This document shows, piece after piece, positions 7,882-47,307 of a stretch of DNA of 48,092 bases (position 1 is its first letter; each line of letters opens with the position of its first letter). The translations under genes were made by a program, and so were the position numbers. The notes below the pieces were generated by a model that saw only the letters and a program-made list of their open reading frames with translations, did not search any database and was not told where the DNA came from. The stretch covers positions 77,564 to 125,655 of the forward strand of contig DAIDHL010000002.1 in assembly GCA_027459745.1 (NCBI GenBank). The letters run 5' to 3'. Source of the DNA: Candidatus Levyibacteriota bacterium. GTDB lineage: Bacteria; Patescibacteriota; Microgenomatia; Levybacterales; UBA12049.

Positions 7882-10131
7882 ATGGATAAGGTCTATAACC
7901 ACCAAGACGTAGAAGAAAAGATTTATGAGCAGTGGGAAAAGGCAGGAACTTTTCAACCAGAGATAAATCCGCAAGGTAAGCCTTATACCATTATTTTGCC
8001 TCCGCCAAATGCCAATGGTGATCTTCATTTTGGGCATGCCATGTTTGTAGTCGAAGATATTCTGATTCGTTATCATCGGATGTTGGGTGATAGCGCTTTA
8101 TGGCTACCAGGCACAGATCATGCGGGGACAGAGACGCAATTTGTGTTTGAGAAAAAGTTACAAGAACAGGGGAAATCTCGTTTTGATTTTACTCGCGAAG
8201 ATTTATACCACAAAATCTGGGATTATGTACAAGAAAATAGGGGAGGCATTGAAAAACAATTACGCAGATTGGGCTTTTCTTTGGATTGGTCTAGACAAAA
8301 ATTCACCTTAGATGCGGATATTGTGAGTTTAGTCAAACAATCATTTAAAAAGATGTATGAGGATGGACTGATTTATCGAGATTATCGCTTGGTGAATTAT
8401 TGTACCCGAGATGGAACTTCATTCTCGGATTTAGAAACCATCAGCGAAGAAAAAGAAGGCATTTTATATCACATTAAATATCCCATTAAAGAAGGTGGAT
8501 TTATTACGGTAGCTACGACCAGACCGGAAACGATGTTTGGTGATGTGGCGGTAATGGTCCATCCGGAAGATGCCAGATATAAACAATTAATTGGTAAGAC
8601 CGTGGTTTTACCTTTAACAAATCGAGAAATACCTATTATTGCTGATGAAACAGTCGATAAGGAATTTGGTACTGGTGCAGTTAAAGTTACACCTTCACAC
8701 GATTTTACTGATTATGAAGTGGGTAGGAAACATGAATTAACTTTCCCGCCAGTAATAGGTTGGAGTGGTAAATTTGAAAAGACCGGGGTGGTGGATGGAT
8801 TTTATGTTAAACAAGCTAGACAAAAAACATTGGAGTTATTAAAAGAACAAAACTTATTAGAAAAAGAAGAGCCGCATAAAATGGTAGTTAAAATTTGCTA
8901 CAAATGCAAAACCGTACTTGAGCCGTTGCCTTTGGAACAATGGTATATCAAAGTTAAACCATTAGTGGCTAAGGCCTTAGAGTCAATCGAAAAACAAGAA
9001 ATTGAGATTTTTCCCAAGAATTTTGCTCAGACCTTAAATTTTTGGTACAACAACTTAAAAGATTGGAATATTTCCCGACAAAATGTGTGGGGGATACAAA
9101 TTCCCGTGTGGTATGAGGTAACAGATGAAAATTTATTTGCCGTGTCTTTTATTGATAAACAAGGAAATCTAAAACAGGGAATTTTGGCCGATTTACTTAA
9201 AGAGGGAAGTGAGTGGGAAGAAATTTTAGCAGGTCTACAAAGAGTTATTGCGCGCATGGAAGCCAAAGTGGTGTTTGAAGACAATAAAATTGAAGATAAA
9301 AAATATTTACCCGAAACAGACACTTTTGATACCTGGTTTTCTTCGGGGCAGTGGCCTTATGTGACTTTAAAAACGACCAAAGCAGGCGACTTTGAAAAGT
9401 TTTATCCTACCTCAGTTATGGAAACAGGTAGGGATATTTTATTTTTCTGGGTTTCAAGGATGATTATGTTGGGTATGTATTTGACGAATGGGCAAGTGCC
9501 ATTCAAAAATGTAGTTTTACATGGTTTAGTTAATGATCCACTGGGTAAGAAAATGAGTAAGTCCAAAGGGAATGTAGTGAATCCTCTTGAGGTGGCTGAC
9601 CAATATGGGGCTGATGCATTGCGTTTCGCTTTGGTATACGGCAATGCCTTGGGTAATGATCAAGCTATGTCTTATCCCAAACTGGAAGCTATGCGTAAAT
9701 TTACTAATAAACTATGGAATATGGCCAGATTTATTGAATTTCAAGCTAGAAACTTATATCCACAAATAGATTTGAATCAAATTGAACGTAAGGTTGTGGA
9801 AGTTAATAATTTGCATGCCAATGATCAAGAATGGTTGAAGAAATTAGATGTCCTGAGCCAAGAGATTAGTAATTATATTGATGCTTATCAGTTTAACTTG
9901 GCGGCAGAGCATCTGTATGATTTCATCTGGCATGAGTTTGCCGATAAGTATATTGAGGATGTGAAGACGCGTAATGATGAGGATTCGTTTGGAGCGTTGT
10001 GTCAGATGTTTGAAGTTCAACTCAAGTTGTTGCATCCTTTTATGCCGTTTGTGACTGAGGAGATTTACCAAAAAATGCCTGGGCATCAAGGACTATTAAT
10101 CACGGCCAGATGGCCAGGCGTTCGGGAATAG
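7882..10131 (+). CDS. valS: Valyl-tRNA synthetase
   Basis: PPPNANGDLHFGHAM (HIGH-type), WLPGTDHAGTETQ, GKKMSKSKGNVVNPL (KMSKS). Confidence 0.97.
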   Translation: MDKVYNHQDVEEKIYEQWEKAGTFQPEINPQGKPYTIILPPPNANGDLHFGHAMFVVEDILIRYHRMLGDSALWLPGTDHAGTETQFVFEKKLQEQGKSRFDFTREDLYHKIWDYVQENRGGIEKQLRRLGFSLDWSRQKFTLDADIVSLVKQSFKKMYEDGLIYRDYRLVNYCTRDGTSFSDLETISEEKEGILYHIKYPIKEGGFITVATTRPETMFGDVAVMVHPEDARYKQLIGKTVVLPLTNREIPIIADETVDKEFGTGAVKVTPSHDFTDYEVGRKHELTFPPVIGWSGKFEKTGVVDGFYVKQARQKTLELLKEQNLLEKEEPHKMVVKICYKCKTVLEPLPLEQWYIKVKPLVAKALESIEKQEIEIFPKNFAQTLNFWYNNLKDWNISRQNVWGIQIPVWYEVTDENLFAVSFIDKQGNLKQGILADLLKEGSEWEEILAGLQRVIARMEAKVVFEDNKIEDKKYLPETDTFDTWFSSGQWPYVTLKTTKAGDFEKFYPTSVMETGRDILFFWVSRMIMLGMYLTNGQVPFKNVVLHGLVNDPLGKKMSKSKGNVVNPLEVADQYGADALRFALVYGNALGNDQAMSYPKLEAMRKFTNKLWNMARFIEFQARNLYPQIDLNQIERKVVEVNNLHANDQEWLKKLDVLSQEISNYIDAYQFNLAAEHLYDFIWHEFADKYIEDVKTRNDEDSFGALCQMFEVQLKLLHPFMPFVTEEIYQKMPGHQGLLITARWPGVRE

Positions 10132-40808: not shown

Positions 40809-41246
40809 ATGAAAAAGACCTTAATCGCATTGGCAGCTGTAGTTGTTATTGGGGGATATGTCCTATATCAAAATCAGGGTAGGTTTTTCTTGATTTTACT
40901 TGCTCAGCATCGGTTATCTAACCCCTTTCAATCTAGCGGAAATACAGCTCCTGCTACGAATATAAGTTATAAAAACGGTACTTATACAGGTTCGGTAGAA
41001 GATGCATTCTATGGCAACGTCCAGGTACAAGCGACTATTACTGGGGGCAAAATAACGGATGTACAATTTTTACAGTATCCTCATGATGCCTTAAGATCGC
41101 AAGCTATTAATTCACTTGCCATGCCAAATCTTAGGCAAGAAGCCATTACTGCTCAGATTGCCCAGGTTGATGTCGTTTCAGGTGCCACTGACACGAGTAA
41201 TGCTTTTGTCCAGTCTTTACAAACAGCACTTTCACAAGCCAAATAA
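40809..41246 (+). CDS. TM-anchored FMN-binding (FMN_bind) domain protein
   Basis: YKNGTYTGSVEDAFYGNVQVQATITGGKITDVQFLQYP...VDVVSGATDTSNAF, SGATxTS flavinylation motif. Confidence 0.92.
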   Translation: MKKTLIALAAVVVIGGYVLYQNQGRFFLILLAQHRLSNPFQSSGNTAPATNISYKNGTYTGSVEDAFYGNVQVQATITGGKITDVQFLQYPHDALRSQAINSLAMPNLRQEAITAQIAQVDVVSGATDTSNAFVQSLQTALSQAK

Positions 41247-41251
41247 TTAAT

Positions 41252-42037
41252 ATGAAACAAACAAGATTAATGATGGGAATGCCTATTACGGTAGAGATAG
41301 TGAATTGTAAAGTAAAGCTATTTCATTTTCAGGAAATATTCAACTATTTTCAATATATTGATGATACTTTCAGTACATATAAAGAAAATAGTGAGATCAG
41401 TAAAATTAATCGTGGCTTATTGACCAAAAGCCAATATAGCCGAGATATGCAGACTATTTTAGATTTAGCTGAAAGAACCAGGCAGGATACACAAGGATAT
41501 TTTGATATTCATAGGGGAGATAAAATTGACCCCTCAGGTATAGTTAAAGGTTGGGCAATTTATCAGGCAGCCCTTAGCCTAAAACAAAAAGGTTTTACAG
41601 ATTATTATGTTGATGCAGGTGGAGATATTCAAGTTTCAGGTTTGAATAGTCATCACCAGCCTTGGATTGTGGGTATACGTAATCCATTTAACCGGGAAGA
41701 GATTGTCAAAGTCGTATCCTTAAAGGGTAAAGGGATAGCGACTTCGGGCACTTATATTCGGGGTGCTCATATTTATAATCCTCAGGATAAAACTGACAAT
41801 CTAGCAGAGGTCATCAGTTTTACGGTTATTGGCCCCAATGTTTATGAAGCAGACAGGTTTGCTACCGCTGCTTTTGCTATGGGCAAAAAAGGCATTGAAT
41901 TCATAGAAAAGTTATCAGGTTTTGAAGGATATATGATAGATAAAAAAAGTATAGCTACTATGACTAGCAAGTTTAGTGAATATGTAGTGAAATCTGTTGA
42001 AGAATCAGAAAAAAAAGATCTTAAATCTATACAATAA
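41252..42037 (+). CDS. apbE: ApbE family FAD:protein FMN transferase
   Basis: LMMGMPITVEI; DPSGIVKGWAIYQA; DAGGDIQVSG; GIATSGTYIRG; ADRFATAAFAMG. Confidence 0.93.
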   Translation: MKQTRLMMGMPITVEIVNCKVKLFHFQEIFNYFQYIDDTFSTYKENSEISKINRGLLTKSQYSRDMQTILDLAERTRQDTQGYFDIHRGDKIDPSGIVKGWAIYQAALSLKQKGFTDYYVDAGGDIQVSGLNSHHQPWIVGIRNPFNREEIVKVVSLKGKGIATSGTYIRGAHIYNPQDKTDNLAEVISFTVIGPNVYEADRFATAAFAMGKKGIEFIEKLSGFEGYMIDKKSIATMTSKFSEYVVKSVEESEKKDLKSIQ

Positions 42038-42042
42038 AATAT

Positions 42043-42609
42043 ATGGATACAAAAAAAATTGCTCTTTCATCAATAGTAATAGTTAGTTTTTTAGGCTATT
42101 CATTTTATGTCAAGGCAGAAGGTATTAATCAAATGCCAGCTCTTGCTCCAGTCGGTAATAACAATAGGCAGGCGATGATGAATTCGATACCTACGAATAC
42201 TCCAACTGTGACACTCTTTCCCAGTGCTACTCCCAGTCCAACATCAGCTGGTAGTTCAATTGTTTCGACTCCTACAGCAGTTCTTCCAACTTCAATTCCT
42301 ACACCAACCCCTAAACCAAATTCGCAATATAAAGATGGTACATATACGGGCTCGGTGGCTGATGCATTTTATGGGAATATTCAAGTGCAGGCAACTATTT
42401 CCGGGGGCAAGATAAGCAATATCCAGTTTCTACAAGCCCCAAATGACCGTGGTACATCAATTTATATTAATTCTCAAGCAGATCCCATGTTAGCTCAAGA
42501 AGCAATTCAAGCACAAAGCGCGAATGTAAACATTGTGTCCGGTGCGACTGATTCCAGTCAGGCCTTCATGCAATCTCTGCAAGCTGCTCTAGATCAAGCT
42601 AAAAGTTAG
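42043..42609 (+). CDS. FMN_bind domain protein with Pro/Thr/Ser-rich linker
   Basis: N-terminal hydrophobic segment, PTNTPTVTLFPSATPSPTS... linker, then YKDGTYTGSVADAFYGNIQVQATISGGKIS...VNIVSGATDSSQAF. Confidence 0.92.
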   Translation: MDTKKIALSSIVIVSFLGYSFYVKAEGINQMPALAPVGNNNRQAMMNSIPTNTPTVTLFPSATPSPTSAGSSIVSTPTAVLPTSIPTPTPKPNSQYKDGTYTGSVADAFYGNIQVQATISGGKISNIQFLQAPNDRGTSIYINSQADPMLAQEAIQAQSANVNIVSGATDSSQAFMQSLQAALDQAKS

Positions 42610-42614
42610 AACCT

Positions 42615-44129
42615 ATGGAAATGATTGATAACTTTTTGGATAAGATAACCATGTATCGTCTGGTACTGTATTATTTAATTTTATTGCTAGTAATTGCTTT
42701 GATTTATACCTTTTTAGGCGTTTTGCCTTTTTCCCCACTCTCTCTAATTATTTCTACTCTTTTTATTGTGGCTGTGTCGTGGGTAACAAATAAGATTTTT
42801 GCTATAACGTTTAGAGTGTCGACTAACTTTGAATCTGTCTATATCTCCGCACTTATTTTAGCTTTAATAGCTTCTCCGGCAAAAACGTTTACAGATTATG
42901 CTTTCCTTTTTTGGGCGGCTGTATTAGCAATGGCTTCTAAGTATATTTTAGCTATCAATAAAAAGCATTTATTTAACCCGGTGGCAGTGGCGGTGGCAAT
43001 TACCGCTTTGGCTTCGATTGGTTCAGCCAGTTGGTGGGTAGGAACTGGTTCCATGTTACCGTTTCTACTATTGGGGTTTTTAATTGTACGCAAAATAAGG
43101 AGGTTTGATCTTGTATATTATTTCTTTTTAGCGGTATTATTGACCATGTTTGGCTTTACTATTCTGCAAGGAGGAAATCTAGTTAGTTCGCTTAGAGATG
43201 TTTTGCTCTCGTCTTCATTGTTTTTCTTTGCTTTTGTCATGCTTACGGAGCCTTTGACAACGCCACCTACCAAAAAACTACAAACTATTTATGGTCTTTT
43301 AGTGGGAATAATGTTTGTTCCGCAGTTTCATATTGGGGCTTTTTACACAACTCCAGAATTAGCATTGGTTGTGGGAAATCTTTATGCTTATATTGTCAGT
43401 CCAAAATATAAAATTATGACTACCTTAAAACAAAAACTCCAGGTGGCACCCGATATGATTGACTTTCTTTTTGTAACAGGTAAAAACTTCAATTTTGCAC
43501 CAGGGCAATATATGGAATGGACAGTTCCCCATGCTCATCCGGATAGTCGGGGGAATCGACGCTATTTTACATTAGCCTCCTCACCTACGGAAAATATACA
43601 GAGATTAGGTATTAGATTTTATCCCAATGGTAGCAGTTTCAAAAAAGCTATGTTATCTATGGACGTTAGTACCCCTCTGATTGGTTCTCAGTTGAGTGGA
43701 GATTTTACTCTACCCGACAATGTAAATACAAAACTTGTGTTTATGGCGGGGGGTATTGGTATTACGCCATTTCGTAGTATGCTTAAATACCTGGTTGATA
43801 TGAAGCAAAAAAGACCTATTGTGATGTTTTATAGCAATAAGGTTTATAACGAGATTATTTATACGGATGTTTTCAATGATGCGTATACTCAGTTAGGTAT
43901 TAAAACGGTTTACACTTTGACTGATAAGAATAAATTGCCTGCAAATTGGAAAGGTAAAGTGGGTAGAATTGACGCAGATATGATTGCCCAGGAAGTACCC
44001 GATTATAAAGAGCGCACATTTTATTTGTCAGGTCCACATTCTATGGTGGTAGGGTATGAAGAAGTGTTGAAGGGTATGGGTATTCCCGAAAAACAAATTA
44101 AGAAAGACTTTTTCCCAGGTTTTGCCTAA
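42615..44129 (+). CDS. Fusion of RnfD/NqrB-like membrane domain with FAD/NAD(P)-binding ferredoxin-reductase-like domain
   Basis: About 9 TM segments including KKHLFNPVAVAVAITAL; C-terminal FAPGQYMEW, RRYFTLASSP, FMAGGIGITPFRSMLKYL, FYLSGPHSMV. Confidence 0.9.
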   Translation: MEMIDNFLDKITMYRLVLYYLILLLVIALIYTFLGVLPFSPLSLIISTLFIVAVSWVTNKIFAITFRVSTNFESVYISALILALIASPAKTFTDYAFLFWAAVLAMASKYILAINKKHLFNPVAVAVAITALASIGSASWWVGTGSMLPFLLLGFLIVRKIRRFDLVYYFFLAVLLTMFGFTILQGGNLVSSLRDVLLSSSLFFFAFVMLTEPLTTPPTKKLQTIYGLLVGIMFVPQFHIGAFYTTPELALVVGNLYAYIVSPKYKIMTTLKQKLQVAPDMIDFLFVTGKNFNFAPGQYMEWTVPHAHPDSRGNRRYFTLASSPTENIQRLGIRFYPNGSSFKKAMLSMDVSTPLIGSQLSGDFTLPDNVNTKLVFMAGGIGITPFRSMLKYLVDMKQKRPIVMFYSNKVYNEIIYTDVFNDAYTQLGIKTVYTLTDKNKLPANWKGKVGRIDADMIAQEVPDYKERTFYLSGPHSMVVGYEEVLKGMGIPEKQIKKDFFPGFA

Positions 44130-45099
44130 TTGGCAGAGAGATTAGAACTTTTGTTTCTTTGCCTTCTATTGAATTAAGGGTTATTTTACCATGGTGTAAG
44201 TCAACTATTTGCTTAGCAATTGATAACCCTAACCCAGAGCCTTTTTCCGAACGAGAAGGGTCAAGTCGATAAAAGCGATCGAAGACTTTGGCTATCTCAT
44301 CTGGGGGGATACCCGGGCCACTATTAATGATTATAATATTAGCTTGATTAGTGTCATAATTCACACTGATTTGGATATGGCCTTTTGCAGGACTATATTT
44401 AATAGCATTATCGAGCAAATTAGAGAATAGCCTAGTTAATAAATGACTATTTCCTTGAATTAAAATATTTTCTGTTGGAGGTTTGAAAGTAATGGCTTGT
44501 TGCTTTATTTTTGCTCTTTTTTGTAATAAAGAGATACGGCCATTTAGTAAGTCGATCAAATCAATGCTTTCCTGTAAAGCTGTTGACTGTTGGTCTTCTC
44601 GGTTTATAAAAAGCAGGTTTTCTACCAGGGAAATTAAATCATCTACTTCCTCTTTATTGCTTTTTAAAGTTTTTTCATAGTCAGCCAAAGTTCTTTTTTT
44701 GCGTAAGGCAAGCTCTATATCTGCACTGATTATAGATAAAGGAGTTCGTAAATCATGGGATGCATCGGTGAGGAATTGTTTTTCTCTATTGTGGGCTGCC
44801 TGTATCGGTGCAAGTGTGCGTCCTGTCAAGAACCAAGTAATTAAAGGAACGCCCGCAAGCAAGCCAAGATCGATTAATAGTATGATATTTTTTAACTCAT
44901 CCAAAATAATATCCATTGGTGGTTCTCGTTTAGCACACTCTAGATCGAATGATGGTTGATAACTAGAGTCTCGTCTAAAAGAACTATCACCAAAGAACTG
45001 ATTCATCCAAAAATATATACCTCCACTTAGACTCCAGAATAAAACCAAAAAGATAAGTGAATATAAAACTGTTAATTTGATTCTGGCGGTATGAAACAT
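44098..45099 (-). CDS. Sensor histidine kinase
   Basis: FLTDASHDLRTPLSIISADIELAL H-box; LFSNLLDNAIKYSP; DRFYRLDPSRSEKGSGLGLSIAKQI. Confidence 0.96.
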   Translation of the reverse strand: MFHTARIKLTVLYSLIFLVLFWSLSGGIYFWMNQFFGDSSFRRDSSYQPSFDLECAKREPPMDIILDELKNIILLIDLGLLAGVPLITWFLTGRTLAPIQAAHNREKQFLTDASHDLRTPLSIISADIELALRKKRTLADYEKTLKSNKEEVDDLISLVENLLFINREDQQSTALQESIDLIDLLNGRISLLQKRAKIKQQAITFKPPTENILIQGNSHLLTRLFSNLLDNAIKYSPAKGHIQISVNYDTNQANIIIINSGPGIPPDEIAKVFDRFYRLDPSRSEKGSGLGLSIAKQIVDLHHGKITLNSIEGKETKVLISLPIRQNLGKSLS

Positions 45100-45113: not shown

Positions 45114-45794
45114 TTAACTGGATTTTGAATTTAAAATATAACCTAATCCTCGTACAGTATGGATAAGATCCGAGGACTTATTATTGATTTTTAGTTTCTG
45201 TCGTACGTATTTAATATATGTTTCCACAATATTGGATAGTCCCTCATATTGATAATCCCAAACATGCTCTAATAATTGAGTCTTCGATAAAACCGTATTG
45301 GGATTACGCATAAAATATTCCAGTAATGCATATTCTCTAGCCGTCAAAATAATCTTTTTATTGTCTCTAGTAACTTCTTTAGTAGCGGGATTTAGTATTA
45401 AATCTGCAATTTGCAAAATAACCGGATCTGTTTTATTGCCACGGCGCAAAAGAGCTCTGATACGAGCCGAAATTTCCGCAAAAGAAAAAGGTTTGGTAAC
45501 ATAATCATCAGCTCCGGTGTCCAGGCCTTCGATTTTATCATCAATCGCATCTCTGGCGGTAAGCATCAGCACAGGAGTGTGAATGTTTTGAGTACGAATT
45601 TTCTTACAAAGTGTAAAACCATCTATTTTTGGTAGCATGAGGTCCATAATGATGATATCGTAAGTGTTAATCATGATTTTTTCCCAACCTTCCTCCCCAT
45701 CTCTGGCAATATCAACACTATATGAATCTTCCATTAGCCCTTGGCGTAGAATGTTGGCAATCTTAACTTCGTCTTCGATTATCAGAATTTGCAT
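45114..45794 (-). CDS. OmpR/PhoB-family response regulator
   Basis: ILIIEDEVKIANIL, DIIIMDLMLPKIDGF, GADDYVTKPFSFAEISARI; winged-helix C-terminus. Confidence 0.96.
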   Translation of the reverse strand: MQILIIEDEVKIANILRQGLMEDSYSVDIARDGEEGWEKIMINTYDIIIMDLMLPKIDGFTLCKKIRTQNIHTPVLMLTARDAIDDKIEGLDTGADDYVTKPFSFAEISARIRALLRRGNKTDPVILQIADLILNPATKEVTRDNKKIILTAREYALLEYFMRNPNTVLSKTQLLEHVWDYQYEGLSNIVETYIKYVRQKLKINNKSSDLIHTVRGLGYILNSKSS

Positions 45795-45855: not shown

Positions 45856-46416
45856 GTGGAAAATAAACTTAAAATATTGGGTTTTGCCGGTAGTTTACGT
45901 GATGGGTCATTAAATAAGAAATTACTTCATGCTGCACAGGAGTTATCTCCTCAAGATGCAGAACTAGAAATATTCGATCTTAAAGATATACCCTTGTTTA
46001 ATGCTGATATAGAAGCTAAAGGAGATCCTCAGAGTGTTAAAGACTTCAAGATTAAGATTAGTGAAGCTGATGCTGTATTAATAGCAACACCTGAATATAA
46101 TCATTCGATTCCCGGAGTGCTTAAGAATGCGCTTGATTGGGCTAGTCGGTCACCTGAAAAAGTGTTAAACAAAAAGCCTGTGGCTATGATTGGTACTTCA
46201 GATGGGATTACCGGAGCAACACGTTCACAACAACATCTGATTCAAGTCTTAGCAACTATTAATGCTTATACTTTATATAAACCAGAGGTAATTGTGCCTA
46301 ATGGAGATAAAAAGTTTGATGAGCAGGGGAATTTAATTGATGATAAGACCAAAGCTAAAATAGCTACACTTTTAACAGAATTAATTAAATGGACGAAATT
46401 AGTATCAAGAAGTTAG
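45856..46416 (+). CDS. NAD(P)H-dependent FMN reductase family protein
   Basis: ILGFAGSLRDGSLNKKLL; IATPEYNHSIPGVLKNALDWASR. GTG start with TATAAT 6 nt upstream. Confidence 0.93.
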   Translation: MENKLKILGFAGSLRDGSLNKKLLHAAQELSPQDAELEIFDLKDIPLFNADIEAKGDPQSVKDFKIKISEADAVLIATPEYNHSIPGVLKNALDWASRSPEKVLNKKPVAMIGTSDGITGATRSQQHLIQVLATINAYTLYKPEVIVPNGDKKFDEQGNLIDDKTKAKIATLLTELIKWTKLVSRS

Positions 46417-46815: not shown

Positions 46816-47307
46816 ATGACCAAAAATATCATCATAATAATCTTATTAATTATTGCCGTTGCTGAAGCTGGTTATATTATTGATAAAAGAAATTCTCCCC
46901 AGGGAAGTATGGCCATGACTACTCATCCTAGTGTAACTGGAGCAATGCCTCCCGCCGGTCCAAATGCGAAAGGTAAAGGACCTGTAATTATTTCTAAAGG
47001 CATGAATTTGAAAAGCACACCTCTTTTTCAATATGCATATGAAATTTCTCCCAATGTGGCAAATGATGCTAAAGCTGCCATGGTTGGTTTTAGTATGACT
47101 TCTGAAAAACAAGCGGATGGTTCTATGATTGTAACATTGGCTCCAAAAGATTCTGATGATCAAAGCCAGCAATACATAGTGAAATCGGGACAAATACTAT
47201 ATTATATAGAACAGACACCATTTGATGACAAAAATGATCAGGATAAGGATTTAAACTATCGTGATGATTATGGCATTATTACAGACTCTAATGGTATTGT
47301 TCAATAA
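46816..47307 (+). CDS. Hypothetical TM-anchored extracytoplasmic protein
   Basis: N-terminal TM followed by a polar domain. Confidence 0.6.
   Translation: MTKNIIIIILLIIAVAEAGYIIDKRNSPQGSMAMTTHPSVTGAMPPAGPNAKGKGPVIISKGMNLKSTPLFQYAYEISPNVANDAKAAMVGFSMTSEKQADGSMIVTLAPKDSDDQSQQYIVKSGQILYYIEQTPFDDKNDQDKDLNYRDDYGIITDSNGIVQ

Follow-up and report, generated by a model that had tools for sequence, protein, structure and literature searches.

A flavin cassette of the NQR/RNF-like type in a Candidatus Levyibacteriota genome, a probable compact route for exporting electrons from NAD(P)H

CPR bacteria have been described as largely without electron transport chains (PMC7507113). The locus analyzed here raises the question of whether four genes could carry electrons from NAD(P)H across the membrane of such a cell and, if so, what would receive them. 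It lies in a window of 48,092 nucleotides, the whole stretch of DNA that was analyzed, from the 1.37-Mb assembly of a Candidatus Levyibacteriota bacterium. That this is a CPR genome, as a first-pass annotation had proposed, was borne out, and it shares its genus with the Candidatus Levyibacteriota MAG G001. Positions 40809-44129 of the plus strand carry an FMN_bind gene, an ApbE gene, a second FMN_bind gene, and a gene that fuses an NqrB/RnfD-like membrane domain to an FNR-type reductase, with gaps of exactly 5 bp each (Table 1). The coordinates of the open reading frames and their Pfam domain identities agree with the order and spacing reported earlier, and the Pfam matches of all four exceed the curated cut-offs. 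A promoter and terminator scan gave nothing clear. Two features had been missed by the first-pass annotation: the ApbE lacks a signal peptide despite substrates predicted to lie outside the cell, and a two-component system follows directly downstream.

Table 1. Features of the locus in window coordinates, followed by blue-copper-like anchored proteins that stand beside fusions without an FMN_bind/ApbE neighbor (coordinates prefixed by locus).
Feature	Coordinates	Strand	Evidence and remarks
FMN_bind protein 1, 145 aa	40809..41246	+	PF04205 5.9e-10; N-terminal membrane anchor, short linker, motif DVVSGATDTS
ApbE FAD:protein FMN transferase, short form, 261 aa	41252..42037	+	PF02424 8.7e-42; no signal peptide
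FMN_bind protein 2, 188 aa	42043..42609	+	PF04205 1.2e-8; membrane anchor, Pro/Thr-rich linker, motif NIVSGATDSS
Fusion gene, whole	42615..44129	+	NQR2_RnfD_RnfE 1.3e-7 plus NAD_binding_1 5.1e-14 (Pfam)
NqrB/RnfD-like membrane domain, residues 1-262	42615..43400	+	PF03116; no covalent flavin site
FNR-type FAD/NAD(P) reductase domain, residues about 263-504	43401..44129	+	PF00175 5.1e-14
Sensor histidine kinase, convergent, two-component system	44098..45099	-	HisKA, HATPase_c
OmpR-type response regulator, same two-component system	45114..45794	-	Response_reg, Trans_reg_C
Blue-copper-like anchored protein	L085:10599-11051		
Blue-copper-like anchored protein	L131:8257-8748		
Blue-copper-like anchored protein	L134:1806-2315		
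Blue-copper-like anchored protein	L209:7869-8309		
Blue-copper-like anchored protein	L212:3444-3953		
Blue-copper-like anchored protein	L219:5032-5544		
Blue-copper-like anchored protein	L228:7320-7805		

The N-terminal part of the fusion scored 31.7 bits against PF03116 (cut-off 27.7) and the C-terminal part 53.3 bits against PF00175 (cut-off 22), and a profile search with the membrane domain matched RnfD (8ahx_D, 6.7e-5). A full-length model was built from a 27-row alignment; since its fold search was dominated by FNR matches, the membrane domain was modelled separately. Modelled alone, it reached a pLDDT of 87, its PDB fold matches at E below 0.001 were RnfD/NqrB chains only, and RnfD was the nearest fold (TM-score 0.69-0.73 by query). 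The FNR domain resembles NqrF and flavohemoglobin-type reductases by sequence and by fold. Structure prediction therefore agrees with the architecture first proposed, in which the membrane part has the RnfD/NqrB fold and the C-terminal half is an FNR-type reductase. The earlier statement that the membrane domain has no flavinylation motif also holds: no [ST]GA[ST] motif occurs anywhere in the fusion sequence, and no flavinylation motif is found in the conserved columns of alignment A1. The fusion gave no match to a 2Fe-2S domain.

Family searches of the whole assembly found no second PF03116 gene, no third FMN_bind gene, and no second ApbE gene. PF02508, the family of RnfA/E and NqrD/E, had no match at E<=1 in this genome, which is 97% complete, and control searches were positive; the search for the rest of the complex used PF03116 and PF02508. 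The absence of other Nqr/Rnf membrane subunits, originally noted for the window, thus extends across the assembly. With Na+-NQR (NqrABCDEF) the locus shares domains resembling NqrB and NqrF and a flavoprotein resembling NqrC, but NqrD/E are missing, the NqrB and NqrF parts are fused, the membrane part has no covalent FMN site, and no 2Fe-2S domain is matched. The RNF complex is approached through the fold of the membrane domain and an RnfG-like FMN_bind protein, whereas RnfA/E are absent and NAD(P)H would be handled by the fused FNR domain. Flavin-based extracellular electron transfer in Listeria (PplA/FmnB) likewise combines an ApbE-type enzyme with FMN_bind proteins at the outer face; however, that system uses Ndh2, demethylmenaquinone, EetA/B, and an extracytosolic FmnB (PMC12153355, PMC9973259), in contrast to the fused NqrB/RnfD-FNR protein and signal-less ApbE found here.

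The closest precedent is a published one. Meheust et al. 2021 (PMC8238504) define 127 ‘NQR/RNF-like’ clusters by this fusion, with Actinobacteria and CPR as the main sources, and propose that electrons pass one way, out from NAD(P)H; an AlphaFold study of 2024 (PMC11334425) reports that the membrane part of this system is without the flavinylation Thr. By those definitions the window belongs to the system, because it has the defining features of both accounts: an NqrB/RnfD-like domain with a C-terminal PF00175 domain, FMN_bind proteins that are extracytosolic if their anchors indicate export, clustered flavinylation genes, a membrane part that has no covalent flavin site, and a CPR host. It differs in having two FMN_bind genes that flank the ApbE gene. 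The earlier reading of the module consequently stands for its domain identities and for probable electron export from NAD(P)H to the outside, but not for its novelty; a wholly new kind of module was rejected, given that these papers already describe it, including from CPR. Signal-less ApbE, Chloroflexota members, and cupredoxin-neighbored members, which we describe below, are not discussed in the text passages on the system in either source.

ApbE recognizes the motif D-x-x-[S/T]-G-A-[S/T] and attaches the flavin to its last residue (PMC12052999). The SGATD(T/S)S motifs ascribed to both FMN_bind proteins by the first-pass annotation are present, although only FMN_bind 1 (DVVSGAT) follows the full pattern; FMN_bind 2 (NIVSGAT) has Asn in place of the usual Asp. 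In one flavoprotein, changing the motif Asp to Ala was reported to have minor effects only (PMC12052999). Of 42 FMN_bind proteins examined, 41 have a hydrophobic anchor ahead of the domain, flanked on its N-terminal side by net positive charge; the exception is L018, where the scan chose another stretch. From these sequence features, the anchors are predicted to run N-in/C-out and the domains to sit outside. One could instead place ApbE and both FMN_bind domains in the cytosol, so that the module would relay electrons internally between NAD(P)H and flavin at the membrane; the signal-less ApbE lends itself to this reading. We regard it as very improbable: the positive-inside charge pattern places the FMN_bind domains outside in the homologues examined, Pro/Thr-rich tethers are a usual mark of exported proteins, NqrC and RnfG both lie outside the cytosol, and membrane-anchored cupredoxins occupy the same place in some relatives.

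Two FMN_bind genes are found in the window, in a same-genus relative, in three other family members, and in two further loci. In a tree based on few columns, each window copy is closest to its counterpart in those relatives; because each copy groups with its own counterpart, the duplication is probably older than the window genome and these relatives.

The window ApbE begins with MKQTRLMMGMP, straight at the domain, and its open frame of 278 aa leaves at most 17 in-frame residues upstream; neither an N-terminal signal peptide nor a lipoprotein peptide is present in it. The core motifs of the family, DPSGIVKGW, AGGDI, SGTYIRGAHI, and ADRFATA, are all found, as expected of an active flavin transferase. 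The short N terminus recurs in relatives. Fewer than 20 residues lie upstream of the domain in 58 of 76 stop-closed ApbE frames, and a convincing signal peptide was found in none of 77 module ApbEs, L229 being ambiguous. A hydrophobic 12-mer occurs within the first 45 residues of seven module ApbEs; by eye, all but that of L229 correspond to a strand near the start of the domain itself (IIMGMPITVEI or similar). Further ApbE-like proteins from the Chloroflexota genomes that carry the module served as a control, and they too are mostly without a signal peptide. The idea that lack of a signal peptide is unique to the module ApbE was rejected on this ground, as several other Chloroflexota ApbE-like proteins share the absence, which may be a lineage-wide rather than a module-specific trait.

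Since seven residues suffice as a motif for ApbE (PMC12052999), flavinylation before export is feasible. Judged by these N termini, the enzyme probably stays inside the cell and FMN is probably attached to the FMN_bind proteins before they are exported. If ApbE does act inside the cell, the flavoproteins would mature before export, unlike in the lipoprotein-ApbE model. Tat export of folded holo-FMN_bind was considered and rejected; TatC is encoded in the genome, but the twin arginine is absent from the N termini of the window FMN_bind proteins. Another type of ApbE, longer at about 285-350 aa, stands beside more divergent fusions (L084:9961-11379, L133:2208-3074, and L229-L235), and in several of these loci FMN_bind-like proteins have SGSS, AGSS, or AGAS in place of SGAT.

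Taken as a whole, the four-gene set is in our judgment very likely a compact device of the published NQR/RNF-like type that exports electrons across the membrane. Hydride from NAD(P)H would be taken up by FAD in the cytosolic FNR domain. Electrons would then cross the membrane by way of a non-covalently bound flavin in the NqrB/RnfD-like domain, and the covalent FMN of both membrane-anchored FMN_bind proteins would be reduced. The short-tethered FMN_bind protein would remain near the membrane and the long-tethered one would reach further, both handing electrons to an extracytosolic acceptor. ApbE, most probably cytosolic, would attach FMN before or during export, using cytosolic FAD. Points against the exporter reading are the Asn in the FMN_bind 2 motif, the eight of 60 survey loci (see below) that have neither type of carrier, and the signal-less ApbE-like proteins elsewhere in Chloroflexota.

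The module is far from confined to this genome. The fusion was found in 41 GTDB loci of CPR and Chloroflexota, and by hand count 25 of 59 relatives have it at full length, as do 62 of the 380 CPR genomes that were evenly drawn; an electron-export route of this kind would thus be fairly common in CPR. FMN_bind-ApbE-fusion is the usual order. The same gene order as in the window, which the first-pass annotation had suggested looking for in other CPR genomes, is indeed found there: the same-genus genome (L002) has all four genes in the same order, with a fusion 85% identical, and the family members L075, L076, and L077 have two FMN_bind genes ahead of the fusion. Because this arrangement is kept, it is not a product of chance. 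Among 23 relatives with the fusion, FMN_bind passes the cut-off in 12, each of which encodes ApbE as well; nine are without both families, and two (G040 and G045) have ApbE with no FMN_bind match over the cut-off. On a FastTree tree of the fusion, for which no root was inferred, the proteins from Chloroflexota fall together as a single clade amid those from CPR, which suggests that the module was transferred between the two. Stand-alone NqrB/RnfD-like membrane proteins also occur in L142, L143, and L144 (open reading frames at 9848, 9094, and 3105, respectively), with a conserved gene order and a protein of 112-113 aa downstream.

Some genomes that lack FMN_bind encode a small, anchored cupredoxin next to the fusion. 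A cupredoxin profile was trained on the first six cases and then run on 60 loci from evenly drawn CPR genomes, fetched afterwards. Within two genes of the fusion, 46 of these loci had FMN_bind/ApbE, six had a cupredoxin, eight had neither, and none had both (Fisher p = 6e-5 for the exclusion, an optimistic value since loci share descent). Over all 122 loci, the corresponding counts were 95 with FMN_bind/ApbE, 10 with a cupredoxin (four of them from the training set of the profile), 17 with neither, and zero with both; among the 17, L012 and L017 do have FMN_bind/ApbE, hidden by antisense open reading frames. Beyond the two-gene neighborhood, the same profile found a cupredoxin in only one of 1079 genes. 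At least six changes are needed to place the FMN and cupredoxin labels on the fusion tree. In L131, L134, L212, and L219, the cupredoxin gene lies immediately beside the fusion gene on the same strand.

The eight cupredoxins that were scanned, all of the ten but L222 and L226, pass the Pfam cut-off of a cupredoxin family. The His, Cys, His pattern of type-1 copper was seen by eye in seven of the ten, and four of the six in the survey set have the ligands. The three without the Cys (L129, L222, and L226) were rejected as electron carriers. A cupredoxin beside the fusion fits an extracytosolic carrier slot, and the shared neighborhood suggests that the two proteins may work together. A literature search for cupredoxin with RnfD and FMN-binding found no paper. 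More tentatively, and with somewhat less than even confidence, we propose that the fusion is a general, single-polypeptide exporter of electrons from NAD(P)H to the outside whose carrier can be exchanged, being a covalently flavinylated FMN_bind protein in most lineages and a membrane-anchored blue-copper protein in others, and that a cytosolic ApbE acts before carrier export, with no need for extracytosolic FAD. If flavin and copper carriers do swap on the same exporter, the carrier slot could be tested directly by mixing parts. Cys-less cupredoxins also adjoin stand-alone NqrB/RnfD-like membrane proteins in L140 (9866-11875) and L141 (9522-10680); the membrane protein gene of L140 is flanked by a divergent, separate FNR gene.

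What the exported electrons would reduce is not named by any gene of the window. The genome itself is not devoid of electron transport. Oxygen reductases are rare in CPR (PMC7507113), and this genome has an apparently complete Cyo-type quinol oxidase operon, cyoABCDE (L069:10818-15634; G000:C16:162818-167634), in which COX1 was assigned by Pfam and subunits II, III, and IV and the heme o synthase by sequence reading. One could therefore envisage a reduced NADH:quinone reductase, with electrons returning via FMN_bind to a membrane quinone and on to the bo3-type oxidase. Heme-copper oxidase is moreover enriched in fusion genomes, COX1 being present in 17 of 62 against 13 of 318 others among the 380 CPR genomes (hand-tabulated; Fisher p 1e-7, uncontrolled for relatedness). 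However, NqrD/E-RnfA/E, the return path in Nqr and Rnf, are absent, 45 of the 62 fusion genomes are without COX1, and the association may stem from shared lineages and oxygen exposure. On balance, we consider this route improbable.

Export to a surface ferric (or other metal) reductase activity, serving iron uptake or extracellular electron transfer, is a better candidate, if still an unlikely one. PMC8238504 reports a VIT1 iron transporter in six NQR/RNF-like clusters, and flavin-based extracellular electron transfer has been proposed for acid mine drainage CPR (PMC12153355). Yet no iron transporter was recognized among the window flanking genes or the recurrent neighbor clusters examined, a comparison that rare ones could escape, and ferric reduction is in any case a choice of acceptor inside the exporter mechanism rather than a separate mechanism.

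The regulatory neighbors bear on a further role. Neighbor classes that recur near the fusion, named by sequence reading rather than family search, include relatives of the kinase (about 22 loci, of which 21 are FMN-type), relatives of the response regulator (about 18 loci, all FMN-type), and an ECF-sigma-like gene (16 loci). The two-component system is probably associated with the module in a regulatory role. Two-component or ECF sigma/anti-sigma genes that recur beside FMN-type modules would suit a response to outside stress, as expected of an envelope redox-repair or redox-stress system feeding reducing power to exported enzymes, and an MsrA-like gene adjoins the fusion in one fusion-only genome (L088). 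No exported repair enzyme was seen recurring beside the module, though, and the MsrA case concerns fusion-only genomes; we rate this role as doubtful, slightly more so than metal reduction. Just past the two-component system, the window encodes an NADPH-dependent FMN reductase (PF03358) without a signal peptide at 45856-46416. An anchored protein of 163 aa at 46816-47307, without a Pfam or NCBIfam match, has relatives near FMN-type modules in L002, L193, and L201.
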